A stretch of 64,000 nt of DNA from an uncultured Desulfosporosinus sp. GTDB taxonomy: Bacteria; Bacillota; Desulfitobacteriia; Desulfitobacteriales; Desulfitobacteriaceae. Of the stretch, positions 9,477 through 37,644 are shown piece after piece. Numbering within the stretch: position 1 is the first letter of the stretch; every line of letters begins with the position of its first letter. Under the pieces are notes generated by a model. It was not told the origin of the DNA. It did no database searches and worked only from the letters and a program-made list of their open reading frames with translations. The stretch lies in contig CAKMJS010000013.1 of the NCBI GenBank assembly GCA_927405585.1, positions 1 to 64,000 on the forward strand, read 5' to 3'. The position numbers and the translations under genes are program-made.

Positions 9477-10631
9477 ATGAAGTTCTTGCACATTGCCGAT
9501 TTGCATATAGGAAAACGAGTCAACGAATTTAGCATGTTAGAGGATCAGAAGTATATATTAAATCAAATCTTACGACTCGTTGATGAGGTTAAGCCTGTAG
9601 GTATTCTTATGGCAGGTGATATCTATGATAAATGTGTTCCTTCGGGAGAAGCTGTAGAGGTGCTCGATGAGTTTTTGACAGAACTTGTTTCTCGCAAGGT
9701 GCAATTGTTTATCGTTAGTGGCAACCATGATTCCCCTGAACGCTTGAATTTTGGCAGTCGCATTATGCAGAAGAATGGGGTGCATATTGCCGGGACCTTT
9801 GATGGTAAGCTAAAACATCTTATAATCAAAGATGAGTTTGGCCCCGTCAATATTTATCTGTTGCCCTTTGTTAAACCTGCTATAGTAAATCCATATTATG
9901 CAGATCATGACATTCTATCGTATGAAGATGCCGTCAGAGTGATCATTGAGGCTTCTCAAATCAACGGGAGGGAACGAAATATTCTGATTGCCCATCAGTT
10001 CCTCACGAGTGGTGGTCAGCAGCCCGAACGATCAGATTCCGAGACCCTTGCAGTCGGTGGTTTAGATAACATTGATTCGTCAGTGTTCGATAGGTTTGAT
10101 TATGTCGCACTCGGGCATTTGCATGGCCCTCAGCCCATAGGGAGGGACATGATACGCTATGCTGGTTCACCTCTTAAATATTCGTTCTCAGAGGCACGTC
10201 AGCATAAATCGGTGACGATCCTGGAATTAGTGCAGAAAGGCACACTGGATATTTGCGTAGTGCCTTTAACAGCCTTGCGCGATATGCGGGAGATTAAGGG
10301 ACCTCTGAAAGAATTGGTGTGCGTTGGGGCATCCTCGCCTAACCCTTCACAGGATTATATACGAGCGATCTTAACCGATGAGGATGAAGTTTATGACGCG
10401 ATCGGGCAACTTCGCCAAGTCTATCCCAACATAATGCGCATTGACTTTGAAAACAGTCGTAGTAAGCAGGATATTAACTCTAAAACAGCTGCGACAGGAG
10501 ATGTTGCGCGTAAAAGTCCCCATGAATTATTTAAAGAGTTTTATACTAAGCAAAACAACTTAGAGATGACTGAGGATCAAAGTCATATTATTCAGGAAGT
10601 CTTAGAGCAAGTAGGAGGGGTTGTGAAATGA
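9477..10631 (+). CDS. sbcD: Exonuclease subunit SbcD (Mre11-like)
   Basis: SbcD is the metallophosphoesterase subunit of the SbcCD nuclease, which cuts hairpins and processes double-strand ends. The 384-residue protein has the phosphoesterase motifs ADLHIGKR (Asp8, His10), GDIYDK, GNHDSPERL and GHLHGPQ in order. AAAGGAGGTAAAC lies directly before the ATG at 9477; the in-frame ATG at 9456 is less likely. It overlaps sbcC by 4 bp (ATGA), so the subunits are translationally coupled. Confidence 0.93.
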   Translation: MKFLHIADLHIGKRVNEFSMLEDQKYILNQILRLVDEVKPVGILMAGDIYDKCVPSGEAVEVLDEFLTELVSRKVQLFIVSGNHDSPERLNFGSRIMQKNGVHIAGTFDGKLKHLIIKDEFGPVNIYLLPFVKPAIVNPYYADHDILSYEDAVRVIIEASQINGRERNILIAHQFLTSGGQQPERSDSETLAVGGLDNIDSSVFDRFDYVALGHLHGPQPIGRDMIRYAGSPLKYSFSEARQHKSVTILELVQKGTLDICVVPLTALRDMREIKGPLKELVCVGASSPNPSQDYIRAILTDEDEVYDAIGQLRQVYPNIMRIDFENSRSKQDINSKTAATGDVARKSPHELFKEFYTKQNNLEMTEDQSHIIQEVLEQVGGVVK

Positions 10632-13600
10632 AACCTCTAAATGTAGTAATGAGTGCCTTCGGTCCCTATGCCGGAAAGGTCGAACTTCCTCTTCATCAGC
10701 TTGGGAATAATGGGTTGTTCTTGATTACAGGGGACACTGGAGCAGGTAAGACGACTATCTTTGATGCCATCGCCTTTGCGCTTTTTGATGGTGCAAGTGG
10801 TTCTGTGCGCACAGTGGATACACTCAGAAGCGACTTCTCAACCCTCCAAACCAAGACCTATGTTGAATTGGAATTCTTACATAAGGGTAGAGAGTACAAA
10901 TTGACTCGTAATCCAAAATACGAGCGCCCCAAAAAAAGTGGAACCGGCGTCACCTATGAAAATGCCGATGCAACGCTTTTATTACCCTCTGGGGAGGTAG
11001 TTTCAGGAAATACTAAAGTTACGGATAAAATTGTAGAGTTACTAGGAATTGATTTCAAGCAATTTAAGCAAATTGCCATGATTGCTCAAGGGGAGTTTCT
11101 AAAGCTACTCTTTGCGGAAAGTAATGAACGTGCTGGGATTTTCCGCAGAGTATTCAATACGGATATTTATTTAAGAATTCAGGATGCTCTAAAGAGACGA
11201 GAGAAAGACTTGAAAGAGCTCTGCGAAGAAAGCAAACGCAGAATTTTCCAATACATCGAGGGTATTTTTTATGATGAAGATTTTGACGACTATTTGCAAC
11301 TTTCCGAGTTGATTTCTAAACGCAGCATACATGGAACGGAACAGATTATTGGGTTATTAAACGCGTTGATTGCAGGGGATAAATTAAGGTACGTTCAGGA
11401 CAAGCAAGTATCTGAGGAATTAGCGAACCTAATTTTGGCCAAGGCATCAGAGCTTAAAGAAGCTGAGTATGACAACAAATCCTTTGCTGCTCTGGAGACT
11501 GCCCAAAAATTACAAAGTGAATTACTTCAAAAAGCAGATGAGATGGAACGAAATGAAGCGACTGCCACGGCGGCTGAAAAAGCACTGCATGGAGTAAAGC
11601 CGCTTGAAGATCGGTATTTACGCGAAAAAAGGGAGTTCCTTAAACTAACTAGCAGTATGCAAGCGCTTAGAGCGACCATTGCCCTACAAACCCCTAAGGT
11701 GGAAGAACTGCATACCGCCTTGATCACGGAACAGAAAAAAGAACCAATCCGAGAGAAGTTGGCAAGTGATATATTAAGGCTGACTGAGGCCTTGCCACAA
11801 TATGATAAAGTAGAGAACCTCAAGCAAGAAAAAGAAAAGCAAGAGGCAATCCTGAGAACACTAGAAAAGTCACTGGTGTCCTTAAAAATTCAAAAGGAAG
11901 CGTTTGCCGACAAGAAAGACAAGCTAAGCCAGGAACGAGATGAGCTCAATGATGTGGAAACCCGTCTCGCAGAATGCAAAAATAGTCTCTTGAATTTAGG
12001 TGCTCAAGAAACCCAGTTAAACAGTATCGCTACGGGCATCAAAACCATGCAATCGATGCAGTCAGAGTATACTAAGCTACAAAGTGCTTACCTGATTGCG
12101 GAGAAACTCTATAACGAAGCCAATGATGAGTACATCACCAAAGAAAGCGCTTTCTTTCGCGAGCAGGCAGGTATTTTAGCAGAAAGCCTACAGGCTGGAC
12201 TTCCTTGCCCTGTTTGCGGTGCCACTGAGCATCCACAGAAGGCTAAGCCAACTGCCGACGCGCCAAGTGAGGCAGATATTCAAACGTTGAAGGGGCTGAG
12301 AGATCGGAGACAGCAGATCATGCATAAGGCTAGTGAGACAACTAGCAGCAAAAAAACTGAAATGAAAACATCCGAAAACCATATATTTCAAACTGCAAAA
12401 AATGTGTTCTCACACGAGGGCGCTATTAATCTTTTAGAGTTAGAATTATTGGTTCAGAGTGAGCGTGTGAAAACCACAATCAATAAGCAGAAACAAATGG
12501 CGGCAAAGCTCGTCCTAGAGGCACAGAGCACCCGCAAAATAGAATGCTTGAAGCAACTCCTCCAGGTCGAAGAGACCCTTCAGAAAAATGAAGATGTTTA
12601 CACGAAGCAATTAGAGCAGAAAGGGAATCTCGAAGTGACAATCAGTGCTAAAAACAGTGAAATTGAGACACTTCAAGCTGCATTAGACTATCCATCGATT
12701 GAAATAGCCCAACGAACGATTGCTGAGACAACCGGCAAATTAGACGAGTCAAAACGTGTTCTTCAAACAAAAGAAAGGGTTTATCAGGAAAACAAGCGTG
12801 CCCTGGACAGTAACAATACGCTTATAAGCGATCAGGGACTTCGTATGGATGCTATTAACGTAGCCTTGAATACTGCATTAGCTGAGTATACTTCAAAGTA
12901 TCAGGAATATGGCTTTAGCGACGAGGAGGAATACCAGGCCGCACTTCTAGCGGAGCAACCGTTGGCAGAACTCAATAGAATGATAACGGATTATCTTGAT
13001 ATTTGTAGAAGTACAAAGACAGATATTGTGAGGCTAAGTGCCGAAACTAAGGATAAAGTACCTAAGGATACGGCAAAGATTTTAGATCAACAAAGTGCTC
13101 TTCGATTAGAAAAAGAACCCTTAGATGAAAAAATTCAAAGAATTGCCTTAAGACTTCTGAGCAATGAGAAAACGGTCCAAGAACTATCGAAAGCTGAAAT
13201 AGAGCGACATAGATTGGAAACTGATTATTTGACGGTTAATAATTTGTCGAAAACGGCTAACGGAGAACTTGTCGGAAAGCAAAAACTTGCCTTTGAGCAA
13301 TTTGTACAGGCGTCGTACTTTAACCAGATTATCGCCGAAGCCAACAAGCGGCTGACGGCCATGTCTAATGGACGCTATGGACTCCTGCGCAAAGAGAACG
13401 CCACAGATCTTCGTTCGCAATCTGGATTAGAGCTGGATGTGTTGGACAATTATTCTGGTAAAATCCGTACAGTAAAATCATTGTCCGGCGGTGAATCGTT
13501 CAAGGCGTCTCTATCCCTGGCGTTAGGGCTTTCGGATGTTATCCAAAGCTACGCAGGTGGTGTAGAAATTGACACCATGTTCATAGATGAAGGCTTTGGA

Positions 13601-27937: not shown

Positions 27938-28283
27938 GGTTTATACACTCCTTTTTGATTAGGTTCTGTTTTTAACCTATGAGTGAATTATAGCCGGAAT
28001 ATTTGTCAAAAGTATGGCAAAAGTTTGAATTAACTATGTCATAAAGCTTGTACTACCCAAAACTGGAAACAGTCTGATGGGTTTCTTATTTCGAAGGAAA
28101 CAAGGAACCTGTCAGACATATTGGAACAGCTGTGAAGTATTGTCAGTACAAGATTCTGCTGCAATAGGGCTATATTAAACTAAGAAAATAATGGCGTGAA
28201 GGTTGTCCTTGATAGATTATATTTGATTTGATATACTTACTGCGTTGCAGATGAATAATATAGCAAATGAGGAAGAAAATGAA
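27938..28283. other. Gene-free interval
   Basis: This holds the upstream region of the DUF2680-like gene (minus) and the leader of the second small membrane gene (plus). No coding frame with a ribosome binding site was found. Confidence 0.4.
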
Positions 28284-28755: not shown

Positions 28756-30366
28756 ATGCTCAAGTTTGATACGCTTCACAATCCTTATGCCGCACGTCGC
28801 ATGACCGCATACGCCAAAAATGGTATGGTGGCCACTTCTCAACCCCTTGCTGCAGAAGCGGGTTTATCGGTCTTAAAAAAAGGAGGAAATGCGATTGATG
28901 CGGCGATTGCCACAGCGGTCTGCCTGACGGTGGTGGAGCCGACCTCAAACGGAATCGGAGGGGATGCCTTCGCTTTAGTCTGGACTAAGGGGCAACTTTT
29001 TGGTCTGAATTCAAGTGGTCCTGCACCCCAACTACTCACTTTACAAGCCCTAAAAAAAGCCGGACACCAAGCAATGCCAACTTATGGATGGTTTCCAGTA
29101 ACTGTTCCAGGGGCACCCGCCGCCTGGGCTGAGTTATCTGCCCGTTTTGGTAAGCTTCCTCTCACAGAGGTGATGGCACCAGCAATTGCGTATGCTGAAC
29201 AAGGTTATCCCGTTTCACCGATCGTCGGAAGGAACTGGGAGCTCGCTTACGAGCAATACATTCAGGATCTAAAAGACGAGCAATTCAGCCATTGGTTTAA
29301 GACATTTGCTCCGAAAGGACGCGCTCCTAAAATTGGTGAGATTTGGAGTTCTCAAGATCACGCCGGTACGTTGCAAGCGATTGCAGAATCCAATGCACGA
29401 TCATTTTATCAGGGAGACATCGCGGATAAGATCGTTCAATTCTCGAAGAGGCACGGTGGGCTTCTGAGAAAAGACGACTTAGCGTGCTACACTCCGGAAT
29501 GGGTAACCCCGATCTCCGTTAACTATCGTGGTTATGAAGTTTGGGAAATTCCACCCAATGGACATGGACTCGTGGCCTTAATGGCCTTAAATAATTTAAA
29601 AGGGTATAAATTCGAGCTGAAAGAGAGTCCGGAGTCCTATCATCGGCAAATCGAAGCACTCAAGCTGGCTTTTGCCGACGGGAAGAAGTATATTGGCGAT
29701 CCCTCTCAGATGAACGTAAGGATTGAAGATCTACTCTCGGATGGGTATGCCTTGGAACGTCGAAAATTGATAGGAGAAAGAGCGCTTCAGCCTGAACCGG
29801 GCCATCCACCGAAAGGGGGGACAGTCTATTTGGCCACTGCAGATGGTGAGGGAAACATGGTCTCCTATATCCAAAGTAACTATATGGGTTTTGGTTCTGG
29901 CCTTGTTGTCCCTGAAACGGGTATTAGTCTACATAATCGAGGCAACAACTTTTCCTTGGTTCCAAACCATCCGAATTGTATACAATCGGGTAAAAGGCCT
30001 TATCACACCATCATTCCCGGCTTTTTAACCAAAGGTAACCTTCCAGTAGGTCCATTTGGAGTCATGGGAGGGTTTATGCAACCTCAAGGGCATGTCCAAG
30101 TTATCATGAATACGGTTGATTATCATTTGAATCCTCAGGCGGCACTTGATGCACCTCGTTGGCAATGGATGAATGGGAAAACCATTGAAATTGAACACTC
30201 CTTCTCTGAGTCTATAGCGCAAGAACTTGCTCGCAGAGGACATGACATCCGTTGGTCCATGGATACGTCGAGTTTTGGACGAGGTCAAATTATCTGGAGA
30301 ATGGCTGGTGGGATCTTGGCCGGTGGTACTGAGTCGAGGGCGGATGGACATATTGCTTTGTGGTAA
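28756..30366 (+). CDS. Gamma-glutamyltransferase family Ntn-hydrolase
   Basis: The 536-residue enzyme has the large-subunit features AGLSVLKKGGNAIDAAIATAVCLTVVEPTSNGIGGDAF. It also has a self-cleavage nucleophile Thr356 in KGGTVYLATADGEGNMVSYIQSN. No signal peptide is present, so it is cytoplasmic. The TVY-type site and the following SGLVVPETGI resemble oxamate amidohydrolase/HpxW-like and YwrD-like members more than classical periplasmic GGT. The substrate is therefore open. AAGGGGG stands upstream of the ATG. Confidence 0.85.
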   Translation: MLKFDTLHNPYAARRMTAYAKNGMVATSQPLAAEAGLSVLKKGGNAIDAAIATAVCLTVVEPTSNGIGGDAFALVWTKGQLFGLNSSGPAPQLLTLQALKKAGHQAMPTYGWFPVTVPGAPAAWAELSARFGKLPLTEVMAPAIAYAEQGYPVSPIVGRNWELAYEQYIQDLKDEQFSHWFKTFAPKGRAPKIGEIWSSQDHAGTLQAIAESNARSFYQGDIADKIVQFSKRHGGLLRKDDLACYTPEWVTPISVNYRGYEVWEIPPNGHGLVALMALNNLKGYKFELKESPESYHRQIEALKLAFADGKKYIGDPSQMNVRIEDLLSDGYALERRKLIGERALQPEPGHPPKGGTVYLATADGEGNMVSYIQSNYMGFGSGLVVPETGISLHNRGNNFSLVPNHPNCIQSGKRPYHTIIPGFLTKGNLPVGPFGVMGGFMQPQGHVQVIMNTVDYHLNPQAALDAPRWQWMNGKTIEIEHSFSESIAQELARRGHDIRWSMDTSSFGRGQIIWRMAGGILAGGTESRADGHIALW

Positions 30367-30407
30367 AAAAAGATTTATATATGACTACTAGATAAGGAGG
30401 GTTTAAA

Positions 30408-31271
30408 ATGCTGAAAGAACAATTATTTGCTAAGCCAATCACTGAAATAATTAAAAAGAGATTATCCGTCCGGTCATATTTATCTCAACCCCTATCGCCT
30501 GAGATGAAAGAAGCGTTGAGTAGATTCTTTTCGATTCTCAGAGGCCCTTTTGGAGGTACAGTAAGAGTAGAACTCATCGAACGAGATTTAGCGCTGAAAG
30601 AATTGAATGCAAAGCTTGGAACTTATGGAGTAATTAGTGGAGCCTCAACCTATGCCGTTGCTGTGGTAGAAAAGGCGGACAGAGATTTAGAGGATTTTGG
30701 ATATTGCTTAGAGAAGGTTATTTTATATGCCGCGTCTATAGGGTTGGGCACTTGTTGGCTGGGGGGTACTTTCAAAAAAAGTGAATTTGCAAAAGCTATT
30801 GGACAAGAAGATCATGAGATCCTACCTTGTATAACGCCAATTGGCTATCCAAGCAGTAGAAAGAGTCTGATAGACTTTGCAATGAGATATGCTGCTGGTT
30901 CAAAAAACAGAAAAAGCTGGAATGAACTTTTCTTTAACGGTGACTTTAGTCATGGCTTATCTGAGCCAGAGGCTGGAATCTACAAGACCCCTTTAGAAAT
31001 GCTGCGACTTGCACCCTCTGCATCTAATAAGCAACCGTGGAGAATTGTCAAGGGCACAAATCAGACGCATTTTTACCTCCAGCATACTAAAGGGTATGCG
31101 AAGATGCTTGCTTATGATTTACAAAGAGTAGATATGGGGATTGCTATGTGTCATTTTGAACTGACAGCTAAAGAACTAGGTATTATAGGAAAATGGCATA
31201 TCAGTGCTCCAGGGAACATAAGTACACCTCAAGACACTGAATATATCGTGAGTTGGGTCGAAGGCATTTAG
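30408..31271 (+). CDS. Nitroreductase-fold protein (TM-nitroreductase type)
   Basis: The 287-residue protein contains two nitroreductase-like halves: KKRLSVRSYLSQPLSPEMKEAL with ASIGLGTCWLGGTF, and EMLRLAPSASNKQPWRIV with DMGIAMCHFELTA. This tandem layout matches the clostridial putative TM nitroreductases, which would bind FMN. AAGGAGGG lies before the ATG at 30408, 42 bp after the GGT-like gene, so the two may be cotranscribed. Confidence 0.85.
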   Translation: MLKEQLFAKPITEIIKKRLSVRSYLSQPLSPEMKEALSRFFSILRGPFGGTVRVELIERDLALKELNAKLGTYGVISGASTYAVAVVEKADRDLEDFGYCLEKVILYAASIGLGTCWLGGTFKKSEFAKAIGQEDHEILPCITPIGYPSSRKSLIDFAMRYAAGSKNRKSWNELFFNGDFSHGLSEPEAGIYKTPLEMLRLAPSASNKQPWRIVKGTNQTHFYLQHTKGYAKMLAYDLQRVDMGIAMCHFELTAKELGIIGKWHISAPGNISTPQDTEYIVSWVEGI

Positions 31272-31300
31272 ACAATACTATGAATGAAGGATGAGCGCTA

Positions 31301-31615
31301 TTGAACCCAGGATCTTGGATTGCAATCTATATGCCATTAATTATTATATTTTTTATCATTATTCCGCAGCAACGTGCAGCTCTGAAGGCTGTACTCTTTA
31401 GAATTAGGAAAAGGAAAGGTGTTGGAAAGATGTTAAACGAGCTAATCAAGAAATATATTGGTAAGAAATGCCTAATAACTACAGGGTCTTTTGGCACTAG
31501 TGTCAAAGGGATAATTATTGATGTCAATGAAAACTGGGTCGAATTAGAAACGAAAAAAGGTAAAGAGCTAATTAATGCTGAATTTGTACAGAGTATTAAG
31601 ATTCTAGATATATAA
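31301..31615 (+). CDS. Membrane-anchored small protein with a DUF6897-like domain
   Basis: The 104-residue protein has an N-terminal helix (WIAIYMPLIIIFFIIIP) and, after a basic stretch, a compact beta domain (LIKKYIGKKCLITTGSFGTSVKGIIIDVNENWVELET). That domain resembles small Sm/KOW-like domains annotated as DUF6897. The start is TTG 31301 with GAAGGA upstream. An internal ATG at 31430 (MLNELIKK) would make the soluble domain alone. GAAAGG is near it, so this shorter product is a real alternative. Confidence 0.6.
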   Translation: MNPGSWIAIYMPLIIIFFIIIPQQRAALKAVLFRIRKRKGVGKMLNELIKKYIGKKCLITTGSFGTSVKGIIIDVNENWVELETKKGKELINAEFVQSIKILDI

Positions 31616-31668
31616 TATTTCAGGTGTAATTGTGTAATTGTGAGACGATTAAATCATAGAATTAATTA

Positions 31669-31697
31669 TTGACAACGTATATTGGAAATGGTATTAT
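31669..31697 (+). promoter_or_regulatory. Sigma-A promoter P1, left arm
   Basis: TTGACA (31669-31674), a 17-nt spacer, then TATTAT (31692-31697). It is the outer of two tandem promoters, 116 bp upstream of P2. Confidence 0.8.
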
Positions 31698-31784
31698 AAC
31701 TGAGTGCCACAAAGACGCACACTGATTGAAACAAGTGAGGGGTAAAATCTTCAAACTGCTCAATCCAGCCGAGTAAAATAGTTA

Positions 31785-31813
31785 TTGACAACGAGAGTTG
31801 GAAATGCTATGAT
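31785..31813 (+). promoter_or_regulatory. Sigma-A promoter P2, left arm
   Basis: TTGACA (31785-31790), a 17-nt spacer, then TATGAT (31808-31813). Transcripts would run through the loop into the opposite arm and fold into a very long hairpin. Confidence 0.82.
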
Positions 31814-31880
31814 GCGATTCCGGCCCAAACGGGTGCAGGAAACACAAACTCCGTTAAGAGTTTCTCTCATTGGCTGTCCT

Positions 31881-31906
31881 TGTTGTTTAGTTTTCAAAGA
31901 CCATTG
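31881..31906 (-). promoter_or_regulatory. boxA-like rRNA antitermination sequence
   Basis: The minus strand of the loop reads TGGTCTTTGAAAACTAAACA, close to the conserved boxA region found in leaders and 16S-23S spacers of Firmicute rRNA operons. It lies downstream of the right-arm promoters, as in a real rRNA leader. Confidence 0.65.
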
Positions 31907-31959
31907 TAGTCCATGTTTTATGAGTTTGTGTTTCCTGCACCCGTTTGGGCCGGAATCGT

Positions 31960-31988
31960 ATCATAGCATTTTCAACCTGCGTTGTCAA
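31960..31988 (-). promoter_or_regulatory. Sigma-A promoter P2, right arm
   Basis: On the minus strand TTGACA (31983-31988), a 17-nt spacer, then TATGAT (31960-31965). It is the counterpart of the left-arm P2, with a few spacer differences. Confidence 0.82.
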
Positions 31989-32075
31989 TAACTATTTTAC
32001 TCGGCTGGATTGAGCAGTTTGAAGATTTTACCCCTCACTTGTTTCAACCAGTGTGCGGCTTTGTGGCGCTCAGTC

Positions 32076-32104
32076 ATAGTACCATTTTCAACGGGGACTG
32101 TCAA
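32076..32104 (-). promoter_or_regulatory. Sigma-A promoter P1, right arm
   Basis: On the minus strand TTGACA (32099-32104), a 17-nt spacer, then TACTAT (32076-32081). The spacer differs at about eight positions from the left-arm P1, as between different rRNA operons of one genome. Confidence 0.78.
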
Positions 32105-32160
32105 TATATTATTTTCTAGTTTAATAATTTTTATTCATTACCTTTTTATTCCTTTTACTT

Positions 32161-32592: not shown

Positions 32593-32626
32593 AATTGATT
32601 AACTCTAATAAGGGAGTGTGCACAAA

Positions 32627-33808
32627 GTGCTTCAGCGGCCGATCATTGTACTCATTCGTAGAATTTGGGTTTTGGGGATAATAATTGTCTTCATTATTAC
32701 GTTAATTGGAGCAGGATCTATCAAATTAACGTCTGTAATATCTTCTAGTCTCATAAACAAGGTGATAGTTATTGACCCAGGCCATGGAGGAGCTGACCCG
32801 GGCGCTAAAAACTCTGGGCTTCAAGAAAAAGATATAAATCTTGATATTTCCTTACGATTACGAGACAGTTTGAAGTCTAAAGGATGTATTGTCATACTGA
32901 CACGTGAGGTAGATAAAGATTTCTATCTCCCCGGCTATGTACTTGGGCGGATGGCTAAACGAGCGGAACTAGACCAGAGAATTAATATTGCTACAGATAA
33001 GAATGCTGATTTATTCATTAGTGTGCATACTAACAGCTTTCCTCGGCCCAATACCTATGGCATGGAAACTTATTATCATCTTAAATCTTACCCCGGAAAA
33101 GTCCTTGCAGAACTAATCCAAAAACAACTCACACAGCTTCAATCTGACAATAAGCGAAAATCCAAAGCTGGAGATTATTATTTAATTAATCAATCTAAAA
33201 TGCCCGCTGTAATTGTAGAAGTCGGGTTCATCTCAAATCCACGAGAAAGGAATCTTCTGATGTCGAACAATTATCGAGACTCTATCGCCGAGGCAATTGG
33301 CACAGGAATTGAGCATTACTTTGACAACTTCCCCCAAGGCCTCCGGGAAAGCATCCAGACAGTGTCACAAGAAGGTCCTCCTTCGAATAGTGAAGATACC
33401 TATAAGGTCTACTTTCCGAGCTCTGATTTAGATAATCTTGTACCAGAAGATCGATATATTAACCGATCAGTATGGTCTAAACTAACTCTCTATCAAAAGT
33501 CAAACCTAGTCTTAAACGAACTCATCCAAGGTCCTCTGACGGTCACCAGCACAAGAACGATTGCTCCCAAAACTAAGATACTCTCTCTAACTATACAAAA
33601 TGGGGTTGCTATTATCGACTTTAGCAAGGATATTCGGGATGATTTTCCCGGGGGGGCTCTAGTAGAGGATATTACCATAAAATCTATTGTTTGGACAATG
33701 ACACAACTCCCTGGAATTAACGGGGTATCGATTCTAATCAATGGTGAATATGGTGACTCCATTGGTGGTCATATTCTCTTAGACCATACATTTCCCATTC
33801 AGTCTTAG
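32627..33808 (+). CDS. N-acetylmuramoyl-L-alanine amidase (CwlD-like) fused to a GerMN domain
   Basis: The 393-residue protein has an N-terminal signal-anchor helix (about 10-32). An Amidase_3 domain follows (about 46-245) with zinc motifs DPGHGGADPG (His53), Glu67 in LQEKD, SVHTNSF and VEVGFISN. The C-terminal domain (about 265-393), with FPSSDLDNLVPEDRYIN and NGVAIIDFSKDIRDDFPGG, resembles the GerMN domain of spore and germination proteins. It would trim peptides from muramic acid during cortex or wall remodelling. GTG 32627 is favoured (GGGAG 10 nt upstream) over GTG 32618, which sits too close to that site. Confidence 0.87.
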   Translation: MLQRPIIVLIRRIWVLGIIIVFIITLIGAGSIKLTSVISSSLINKVIVIDPGHGGADPGAKNSGLQEKDINLDISLRLRDSLKSKGCIVILTREVDKDFYLPGYVLGRMAKRAELDQRINIATDKNADLFISVHTNSFPRPNTYGMETYYHLKSYPGKVLAELIQKQLTQLQSDNKRKSKAGDYYLINQSKMPAVIVEVGFISNPRERNLLMSNNYRDSIAEAIGTGIEHYFDNFPQGLRESIQTVSQEGPPSNSEDTYKVYFPSSDLDNLVPEDRYINRSVWSKLTLYQKSNLVLNELIQGPLTVTSTRTIAPKTKILSLTIQNGVAIIDFSKDIRDDFPGGALVEDITIKSIVWTMTQLPGINGVSILINGEYGDSIGGHILLDHTFPIQS

Positions 33809-33911
33809 AGTAAAGTCAACATTCAGAAGAATGTTAGCCGCTTTTCTACAAAGGGTAGTTAATTCCTGTTCTATAACTGAAAAATAATATCAATATTTCT
33901 CAAAACAGTTG

Positions 33912-33939
33912 TTGCCTTTTCTCTCAACTGTAGTATAAT
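33912..33939 (+). promoter_or_regulatory. Promoter of the CxxC micropeptide gene
   Basis: TTGCCT (33912-33917), a 16-nt spacer, then TATAAT (33934-33939). The ATG of the 37-codon frame lies 41 nt downstream, with AGAGGAGG between. Confidence 0.65.
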
Positions 33940-33979
33940 AGTATTATCAATATCAAACTGTATAAGAGGAGGTAGTGTC

Positions 33980-34093
33980 ATGAACAATGTCACCCTAAAA
34001 GATAATACTCCATCAAGCTCATCTGTTTTGTATCCACCGACATGTTCTCAGTGCCCTGATCGCACTAATTGCGCCCAGTGCATTTCATTTTAG
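33980..34093 (+). CDS. 37-residue Cys-rich peptide with two CxxC motifs
   Basis: AGAGGAGG lies 7 nt before the ATG, a near-consensus promoter lies upstream, and an intrinsic terminator follows, so this is a complete tiny transcription unit. The peptide has a Ser/Pro-rich first half and CSQC-x5-CAQC (Cys22, 25, 31, 34), suited to bind a zinc or iron ion or form disulfides. No maturase or transporter gene is adjacent, so a modified-peptide precursor is not supported. Family unknown. Confidence 0.65.
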   Translation: MNNVTLKDNTPSSSSVLYPPTCSQCPDRTNCAQCISF

Positions 34094-34161
34094 ACCTAAC
34101 TACTCCACTTAAACTCTCCGCTCTCTTCATTCCTGAGTTTGCACAATGAAAATATCATAGC

Positions 34162-34201
34162 AAAAGAGCCTGAAATAATAATATTTTAGGCTCTTTTTTT
34201 G
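34162..34201 (+). terminator. Intrinsic terminator
   Basis: AAAAGAGCCT (34162-34171) pairs with AGGCTCTTTT, followed by a run of seven or more T on the plus strand. It terminates the micropeptide transcript. Confidence 0.82.
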
Positions 34202-34239
34202 CTCTTCAAGAGGAAAGCAATTATTTTGTAGTGTCTCTA

Positions 34240-35841
34240 TTACTTAATTGTTATGATCTGCGGCTGAATATTAAATTGAATTTCATAACGATCGCTTAAC
34301 CATTTTGCCTTCCATTCATCCAATAGCAAAACAGCATAGTTTTCATCTTTATCCAATACTACCGTACTCATGCTTGATTCAGTCAGTAGCTTAATCGTCT
34401 TTTCATCTTTTTCAACCCATCGTACTATTTCAAAGGGAAGGTGTTGAATATTTACTTGGACCCCGTATTCTTCACGCAATCGGTATTCTAACACCTCAAA
34501 CTGCAATTGTCCGACAACTCCAATAATCGGAGCCTCTACACCGACATGGAGATCACGAAAAACATGAATCGCTCCCTCTTCTTGGAGTTCCTGGATCCCC
34601 TTGATGAATTGTTTTCGTTTTAAAGCATTCGCAATATTGATCCGCGCGAAGTTTTCCGGGTTAAAGAAAGGCATTGCTTCGAACTGAAGCCCATCTTTTT
34701 CAGTGAGAACATCCCCGATCCTTAAGAGCCCACTATCATGAACCCCAATAATGTCACCTGCAAATGCCTCGTCAAGAATTGTTCGTTCCTGAGCAAACAA
34801 CTGTTGCGGTTGAGCGAGCCGAAGACGTCTATGAGAACGTGTATGAATCACGTTCATACCTCGTTCATAGCGACCGGAACAAATCCGGATAAACGCTATT
34901 CGGTCACGGTGTTGGGCGTTCATGTTTGCTTGAATTTTAAAAATATACCCAGAAAAACTAGGTGTTTCCGGATCCAGTTCGCCTTGATTCGTGCTTCTTG
35001 GCTGAGGGGATGGTGCTAAATCAAGGAAGCTCCGTAAAAAATTTGGCACTCCGAAGTTATTGAGTGCGCTACCAAAAAAAACTGGCGTCACTTCTCCTCG
35101 GTCGACTCGTTCTCGTGAGAAGGTATTTCCGGCCATATCCAAAAGTTCAATTTCCTCATTTAACTGGTTGATAAGGAGCTCCCCAATGCCTTCTCGTACG
35201 TTAGGATCGCTGAGGGCTCCGGATACAGGTGGCTTGGAACTGGATTTACTGCTTCCTGCAATGAAGCGTTCAACCTGCTCCGTATGGCGATCATAAATCC
35301 CTTTAAAATCGGGGCCCATACCAATTGGCCAATTCATGGCATACGATTCAACCCCCAGCACCTTTTCCACTTCATCCATTAAATCAAGGGGATCTTTGGC
35401 ATTACGATCAAATTTATTAATGAAAGTAAATATTGGAATCCCCCGTTTTCGACAAACCTCAAACAATTTCTTCGTCTGGGTTTCCACCCCTTTAGCCGCG
35501 TCAATCAGCATAACTGCACTATCTGCTGCCGTTAGGGTACGATAGGTGTCTTCACTGAAATCTTGGTGACCTGGTGTATCCAAGATATTGATAACATATC
35601 CTTGATACTTAAATTGGAGAGCACTGGACGTAATCGAGATACCCCGTTGCTGCTCAAGGTCCATCCAATCCGACGTAGCATGGCGTTCTGCTTTTTTGGC
35701 TTTGACTGAACCCGCTTCTCGAATTGCCCCTCCAAAAAGAAGTAGTTTTTCAGTTAAGGTTGTTTTCCCTGCATCAGGATGAGAAATAATTGCAAAGGTT
35801 TTTCGAGACTTAATTTCTGATTTTAGATCTATTTGGTTCAA
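34240..35841 (-). CDS. prfC: Peptide chain release factor 3
   Basis: RF3 is the GTPase that recycles RF1/RF2 from terminating ribosomes. The GTPase motifs are HPDAGKTTLTE, the RF3 segment SDWMDLEQQRGISITSSA, DTPGHQDFSEDTYRTL and NKFDR. The RF3-specific C-terminal half (QFEVLEYRLREEYGVQV) follows. TTG 35841 is favoured because AAAGGAG lies 9 nt upstream and it gives the usual start (MNQIDLKSEIKSRKTFAII). A GTG at 35877 would add 12 residues. It is monocistronic, on the strand opposite its neighbours. Confidence 0.93.
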   Translation of the reverse strand: MNQIDLKSEIKSRKTFAIISHPDAGKTTLTEKLLLFGGAIREAGSVKAKKAERHATSDWMDLEQQRGISITSSALQFKYQGYVINILDTPGHQDFSEDTYRTLTAADSAVMLIDAAKGVETQTKKLFEVCRKRGIPIFTFINKFDRNAKDPLDLMDEVEKVLGVESYAMNWPIGMGPDFKGIYDRHTEQVERFIAGSSKSSSKPPVSGALSDPNVREGIGELLINQLNEEIELLDMAGNTFSRERVDRGEVTPVFFGSALNNFGVPNFLRSFLDLAPSPQPRSTNQGELDPETPSFSGYIFKIQANMNAQHRDRIAFIRICSGRYERGMNVIHTRSHRRLRLAQPQQLFAQERTILDEAFAGDIIGVHDSGLLRIGDVLTEKDGLQFEAMPFFNPENFARINIANALKRKQFIKGIQELQEEGAIHVFRDLHVGVEAPIIGVVGQLQFEVLEYRLREEYGVQVNIQHLPFEIVRWVEKDEKTIKLLTESSMSTVVLDKDENYAVLLLDEWKAKWLSDRYEIQFNIQPQIITIK

Positions 35842-36189
35842 TGTCTTTAGCTCCTTAAATGACTTTTTTAAATTCACTTGGCCTCTATTTATACACGAGC
35901 TTGTAGATATTAGAAATTAACTCAAGTGATATATTCAACTCCTTTGGTTGTAAAATATAATTATAACATGTCAAAGCGAATATTCTCAAATGATTTTATT
36001 CAAAATTCTTTAAAACGCCAGAAGCCAGTGACCCCATTGGTTACCTTATATCATTTTGAAATAGTTTTCTATATATTACCCCACCTACTCCGAGATATTT
36101 TTGTTAGTCTCATGCTATTATGGGAAGGAATTAACTGCCTCTACGTTGAATCTGTAAGCTAGATGCTCAGATATAGGAGGATGGTAGCT
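35842..36189. other. Gene-free interval
   Basis: This is the divergent upstream region of prfC and the YbjN-like gene. A 78-codon plus frame inside it has no ribosome binding site and unlikely composition, so it was not called. Confidence 0.4.
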
Positions 36190-36648
36190 ATGTCCTTATT
36201 TCGGGTGCTTTATGAAATACTAAGCCAAAACGGATGGGAATTCGATTTTGACAACAAAAATGAAATTATCAAGCTCGAGATTCGAGGCATTAATACAGAT
36301 TTTTATGCTTTCCTTCTAGTTGATGAAGAGCAAGAATCTTTACTATGTAACACGCATATAAAGCAAAAAATCCCTCTCTCCAAACGTCTTGAAGTTTGTG
36401 ATTTCATGAGCCGCGTAAACTATGAACTTGCCAATGGTAATTTTGAAATGGATATGGATAACGGCCAAATTAGGTATCGTACATACCTTGATCTTGCCGA
36501 TGCAGAACCTTCTAAAGATCAGGTACTCAACATCGTTTGGAACGGTGTCCTTGGATTTGACACATATTACCCTGGATTAATGAAACTCGTATACGGTGAT
36601 TACAGTGCAGAAGAGGCCGTTGCTTTTTGTACTGATGAAAATAATTAA
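36190..36648 (+). CDS. YbjN-like domain protein
   Basis: The 152-residue acidic protein has the fold pattern of YbjN/type III chaperone-like domains: LYEILSQNGWEFDFDNKNEII, then VDEEQESLLCNTHIKQKIP and CDFMSRVNYELANGNFEMDMDNGQIRYRTYLDL. Such proteins probably bind partner proteins, and none can be named. TAGGAGG 9 nt before ATG 36190 makes this start better than the upstream in-frame ATGs. Confidence 0.72.
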   Translation: MSLFRVLYEILSQNGWEFDFDNKNEIIKLEIRGINTDFYAFLLVDEEQESLLCNTHIKQKIPLSKRLEVCDFMSRVNYELANGNFEMDMDNGQIRYRTYLDLADAEPSKDQVLNIVWNGVLGFDTYYPGLMKLVYGDYSAEEAVAFCTDENN

Positions 36649-36668
36649 TACATACAATAAATTAAAAC

Positions 36669-36702
36669 TAGCCTCCTTCGCTTATAAAAGCCTTGGAGGC
36701 TA
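36669..36702. terminator. Hairpin terminator between convergent genes
   Basis: TAGCCTCC (36669-36676) and GGAGGCTA (36695-36702) pair 20 bp after the YbjN-like gene and 38 bp before the end of the convergent hemolysin III gene. Confidence 0.6.
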
Positions 36703-36739
36703 ATTCGATTTTTATATAAAAATAAGTTGACTAGAACTA

Positions 36740-37387
36740 TCAATTCATCGGGACAATATATATAAGTACCATGATAAAATGCACTATGCTCCCTGCAGCA
36801 ATAAACAAATGGAATATTTCATGAAAGCCAAAGCGTTTTGGGAAGAAATCAAAGATTTTTGTAGCATACACGACAGCACCCATCGTATATATTACTCCAC
36901 CAACGCCCATGAGTATTATGGCTCCCAAAGGTAAATTTTTAATAAGTTGTAAAAAAGGAATTAAGGCGATCCAGCCAAGCGAGACATAAAATGCAGCTGA
37001 AACATATCTAGGTGCATGTATAAACCAAATTTTCAGGGTCATTCCTATTACGGCTAAAGACCAAACAGAAATAAGCATTGCCCAGCGCCATGCGCCTTCC
37101 AGTCCATAATAAAATACTGGTGTATAGGAGCCCGCAATTAAAAAATAAATGGCGATGTGATCTATTTTTTTTAAGATAAGTTCTTTCTGAGGCGTGGTCT
37201 GAACCCAGTGATAAAGGGAGCTAGCCCCATAAAGCAATATCATGCTCACTCCATATATCGACATAGTTATAAGTTTTGAAAGGTTATTTTTGCATATAAT
37301 AATGAGAAACACAAGTCCCACGATCGAAGCCACAAATGCAATAAAATGTGTCCACGTGTTTACTGGTTCCTTCATCTTTAAGCGCAT
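36740..37387 (-). CDS. Hemolysin III family (PAQR-like) membrane protein
   Basis: The 215-residue protein has seven hydrophobic helices. It has the family residues EPVNTWTHFIAFV near the start, SSLYHW and DHIAIYFLIAGSYTPV in the middle, and GFHEIFHLFIAAGSIVHFI at the end, which supply the conserved His/Asp metal site. Despite the name, the cellular function is unknown. The ATG at 37387 follows TTGGAGGC. An upstream extension to 37462 exists but has no ribosome binding site. Confidence 0.88.
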   Translation of the reverse strand: MRLKMKEPVNTWTHFIAFVASIVGLVFLIIICKNNLSKLITMSIYGVSMILLYGASSLYHWVQTTPQKELILKKIDHIAIYFLIAGSYTPVFYYGLEGAWRWAMLISVWSLAVIGMTLKIWFIHAPRYVSAAFYVSLGWIALIPFLQLIKNLPLGAIILMGVGGVIYTMGAVVYATKIFDFFPKRFGFHEIFHLFIAAGSIVHFIMVLIYIVPMN

Positions 37388-37644
37388 TTTTAAAGCCTCC
37401 AATACTTCTTTTGTTAACTTTAACCATTGCTTAATTTTAAACCTTACTTTAGGTAAAATCAACCTCTATTTGAGTTGAAAACGCTAAGGAATGCTATAAA
37501 TATCTATTCTTAATCTAAATATTAAAATATCCAGAAAAGGAAAGCTCTCTATTTTGTAGCAATAATTACCTGAGTAATTTATTTTCTCTAACACATAATA
37601 AGAATGTTCCAGTACACAAACATTATAAAAGGAGGGTACCTATC

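Follow-up and report, generated by a model that had tools for sequence, protein, structure and literature searches.

Inverted repeat and promoters in the window

We analyzed a 64-kb stretch of DNA (the window), which corresponds to positions 1 to 64000 of contig C13 in a Desulfosporosinus draft genome (G000; 4.48 Mb; 181 contigs). The left-hand gene block considered here encodes a gamma-glutamyltranspeptidase, a nitroreductase, and a DUF6897 protein (28756 to 31615, plus strand), and the right-hand block encodes an Amidase_3/GerM protein, prfC (peptide chain release factor 3), YbjN, and hemolysin III (32618 to 37462). Between them lies the inverted repeat that had been reported in the initial annotation. 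Its two arms (31682 to 31851 and 31922 to 32091) measured 170 nt each, were 94% complementary (159 of 170 positions, i.e., 11 mismatches), and were separated by a spacer of 70 nt. No other inverted repeat of at least 40 nt was detected in the window.

All four of the promoters described in the initial annotation (TTGACA -35 boxes, 17-nt spacers, tandem and inward facing) were located. They follow the pattern TTGACA-17 nt-TAnnAT, with two per arm, and all point inward (plus strand, -35 boxes at 31669 and 31785; minus strand, 32104 and 31988). The exact pattern had only one further match elsewhere in the window. The mismatches between the arms were clustered, as had been noted, with six in the P1 region (31685 to 31725), four in the P2 spacer (31794 to 31801), and one at 31814; the arm alignment contained none between 31815 and 31851. 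The arms are likewise not a simple mirror copy, given that they differ at 11 sites and that their flanks belong to different loci (see below).

The region was also said to contain no open reading frame (ORF) or rRNA, and our searches agreed. The Rfam search of the window returned no family match and no rRNA family match, and the sole ORF of at least 60 amino acids at the repeat (31785 to 31991; 68 amino acids) had no gene-like signs. Thus, neither an RNA family nor a gene was found within the repeat.

Origin of the arms

The arm sequence recurs in the same genome at three places, i.e., after gyrA (end of contig C153), beside lysS (end of contig C55), and before a 16S rRNA gene (contig C70). 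We take the first two neighbors to be gyrA and lysS on the basis of their sequences and known gene order and not of a search. Because of these recurrences, both arms are confirmed at the sequence level as rRNA operon leaders, in agreement with the proposal that they come from two different operons. Each arm matches leaders located immediately before 16S, whether in this genome or in others of the genus, and each carries tandem sigma-A promoters with near-consensus -35 and -10 boxes at 17-nt spacing. Compared with the leaders of the genome's other rRNA operons, neither arm was left without a counterpart.

The leader of rRNA operon B (31666 to 31851, plus strand; P1 -35 at 31669 and P2 -35 at 31785) belongs with the left-hand locus and is a 96% match to the gyrA-linked leader on C153. 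The leader of rRNA operon A (31846 to 32112, minus strand; P1 -35 at 32104 and P2 -35 at 31988) belongs with the right-hand locus and includes a boxA stretch that runs to GGAGTTT. In the intact leader on C70, the order is P2, GGAAACACAAACTCATAAA..., TCTTTGAAAACTAAAC (boxA), ...AACGGAGTTTC..., and 16S. Read on the minus strand, the right arm and the 70-nt spacer align contiguously with this C70 leader down to GGAGTTT. The initial annotation had placed a boxA-like sequence in a loop between the arms; the boxA stands, but the spacer is no neutral loop, since together with 31846 to 31851 it forms the boxA leader of the right-hand operon on the minus strand.

The promoters of each arm and the boxA of the right-hand leader resemble the usual Firmicutes/Desulfosporosinus arrangement (tandem sigma-A P1 and P2, boxA, 16S). 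In contrast to that arrangement, the window has two leaders fused head to head, without 16S, 23S, or 5S. The leaders, their promoters, and the boxA are normal components of functioning rRNA operons.

The point at which the two leaders meet

The spacer is asymmetrical; it consists of the continuous leader of the right-hand operon only, which flips at AAACTC. After GGAGTTT, leader A gives way to the left arm in reverse complement, placing the crossover of the very probably chimeric junction at the AAACTC at 31846 to 31851. Both leaders contain this 6-nt microhomology (AAACTC/GAGTTT), leader B in GGAAACACAAACTC and leader A, on its reverse strand, in GGAGTTT. The continuation expected after leader B (CAAACTC-ATAAA..., boxA, and 16S) is missing on C13, as is the 16S expected after leader A. 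The initial annotation had suggested looking for the structure in related strains; a 19-mer spanning the junction, with up to one mismatch allowed, was found in 0 of the 28 other genomes of the genus.

Flanking loci in related genomes

The ORFs to the left of the repeat match one locus in relatives (locus B), where these genes precede rRNA operon B, and those to the right match another (locus A), where the amidase gene is divergent from rRNA operon A. The two loci are far apart in G015 (B at 3.411 Mb and A at 1.628 Mb), G006 (2.904 and 1.629 Mb), and G008 (3.384 and 2.326 Mb). Both operons are present in G006 and G008, at distances of 1.28 and 1.06 Mb, respectively. In G008, a complete 16S-23S-5S operon lies at each locus; its neighbor is the gene that also borders the repeat in the window, and the operon is oriented away from that gene. 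G006 has an rRNA operon at both loci; the rrnA leader and 16S region are masked (runs of N), and 23S and 5S are seen. G015 has an rRNA operon at locus A, with masked sequence (runs of N) and 23S and 5S present, and no rRNA was found at its locus B. The repeat is thus flanked by two distinct loci, and in relatives each of these adjoins an rRNA operon of its own.

Many draft genomes of Desulfosporosinus relatives break at exactly the same two places, and in the close relative D. fructosivorans 63.6F the contig carrying the amidase gene terminates in the leader. As a separate observation, the spore amidase/GerM gene (32618 to 33808 in the window; L052 to L068 in relatives) lies divergently beside an rRNA leader across most of the genus, which makes this a conserved neighborhood.

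Far ends of the two operons in the same genome

The genes that lie downstream of the two operons in relatives were found on two other contigs of the same draft genome, in each case behind a 5S gene; the names NlpC, butyrate kinase, tepA, and ftsK were assigned from the sequences themselves and not by family search. On C81, a 5S gene (29883 to 29999) stops one base short of the contig end (30000) and is followed by NlpC and butyrate kinase genes, which are downstream of rrnA. The ortholog of the NlpC protein encoded after rrnA in G008 lies at 28006 to 29184 of C81, with butyrate kinase adjoining. On C29, a 5S gene (108250 to 108366) lies near the contig end at 108614; this contig also holds the tepA-ftsK block, which in G006 and G008 is located downstream of rrnB. 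The distance from this 5S to tepA is about 7.6 kb, a larger gap than in G006.

Interpretation of the junction

We conclude that the repeat is almost certainly a chimeric assembly misjoin of two rRNA leaders placed head to head and that it represents no new genetic element. The join at 31846 to 31851 is strongly supported as false by the sequence comparisons described above. The initial annotation had itself named a misjoin at collapsed rRNA repeats as something to exclude, and this doubt was the right one. Two contig ends would have been joined head to head via a fold-back junction with 6 nt of shared sequence; one had broken off within the rrnB leader (left) and the other within the rrnA leader (right), and these leaders are nearly identical. 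The true order would then be locus B, leader, 16S-23S-5S, and the C29 end carrying 5S and, elsewhere, locus A, leader, 16S-23S-5S, and the C81 end carrying 5S.

As assemblers usually work with words longer than the 6-nt overlap, the join may have come physically from a read that was chimeric or had snapped back and not from the assembly graph alone. Of the 11 mismatches between the arms, the one closest to the crossover stretch lies about 32 nt away; the arms are therefore no identical snap-back copy, and two operons must be involved. A simple snap-back copy of one leader as the sole cause was rejected on the basis of these differences and of the flanks from different loci. In multiple displacement amplification, 85% of chimeras were inverted, and more than 70% of the junctions had 2 to 21 nt of complementarity (PMC1855051). 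The window resembles these chimeras in its inverted joining, with loss of intervening sequence, at a short complementary sequence. It differs from them in that two different operons supplied the joined copies, and self-priming hairpins were excluded as a major route in that study. By analogy, an amplification-type chimera may have been the source of the join. The riboSeed report (PMC6009695) deals with the misassembly of collapsed rRNA operons in drafts built from short reads. This genome shares with such drafts the contig breaks at rRNA operons and the lack of rRNA genes in the assembly, whereas the error in the window is a head-to-head join and not just a break.

The initial annotation had read the structure as the remnant of two convergent rRNA operons from which all sequence between the leaders had disappeared. 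A real relic of this kind, left by microhomology-mediated deletion with four promoters remaining face to face, would fit the 6-nt microhomology and the orientation of the operons in relatives, where they point toward each other from about 1 Mb apart (G008). Such a deletion would have cost about 1.06 to 1.28 Mb (coordinates of G008 and G006), which is difficult to reconcile with a genome completeness score of 98.59%. It would also have taken both the NlpC block of C81 and the tepA-ftsK block of C29, yet these genes, which lie just inside the two ends of the interval, are still there behind their 5S genes. Because the 3' ends of both operons survive on these contigs, nothing was deleted. The simple deletion between convergent operons was therefore rejected, and we regard a real relic as very improbable. 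The orphan promoters and the giant hairpin transcript that had been proposed fall with it, since the operons are separate in relatives and their 3' ends are retained.

Another reading is a rearrangement with retention, in which the whole interval was cut out or relocated in one piece and the leaders came into contact on the chromosome. It would require a megabase segment that is maintained as a separate replicon or reinserted, as well as two promoterless rRNA operons, and its junction occurs in no relative; we consider it extremely improbable. More generally, it is highly unlikely that a megabase-scale rearrangement truly set two rRNA leaders head to head as a convergently transcribed promoter palindrome with the operon bodies elsewhere. 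The strong consensus promoters and the long inverted repeat could also be taken as signs of a functional element (i.e., a double-stranded-RNA-producing inverted repeat, a mobile element, or a regulatory hairpin). However, the rRNA leaders at other operons account for every part of the structure, and it has no Rfam match and no gene. The restriction of the junction to the G000 assembly led us to reject a conserved element, and it likewise leaves a functional element with a negligible probability.

Under the misjoin interpretation, the inverted repeat is present in the sequence and yet very probably not a real feature of the genome. The gene order of C13 to the left of approximately 31850 relative to that on the right should consequently not be trusted. 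The case also carries a caution, namely, that a long and convincing palindrome of strong promoters in a draft contig can arise merely from the joining of two rRNA leaders.

rRNA sequences elsewhere in the draft genome

A search of the draft genome for 23S found none, and the only 16S is a chimeric fragment on C70 (L011, 2657 to 3815). This fragment consists of about 590 nt of Desulfosporosinus 16S, followed by reverse-complement 16S starting with GGACTACCAGGGTATCTAATCC and then by a third, different 16S-like segment, a composition that suggests contamination or misassembly. The GGACTACCAGGGTATCTAATCC sequence presumably resembles a common 16S amplicon primer site (806R-like). The 5S gene of C29 is not preceded by 23S sequence. 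The fragmentation into 181 contigs, the lack of 23S, and these irregular rRNA ends on C70 and C29 all speak for the misjoin reading of the window, since they show that the assembly is unreliable at rRNA. The region immediately upstream of this contig-end 5S (L120, 18368 to 18615) is instead protein-coding-like (signal peptide-like MKSMQKLVIALVLTATSPFLIAANKGD...) and is probably another foreign or chimeric join.

Short palindromic-looking repeats (ATCCACACTGCAGGAGT...CGCAGTGTGGCG) that alternate with incomplete 5S copies were observed 3' of 5S genes (L121 [C174], 10120 to 11275; L119, 9330 to 10000; L120, 17900 to 18367). The pattern appears as if a REP-like repeat had been inserted into 5S fragments, and sequence similar to these repeats also follows 5S in the relative G006.
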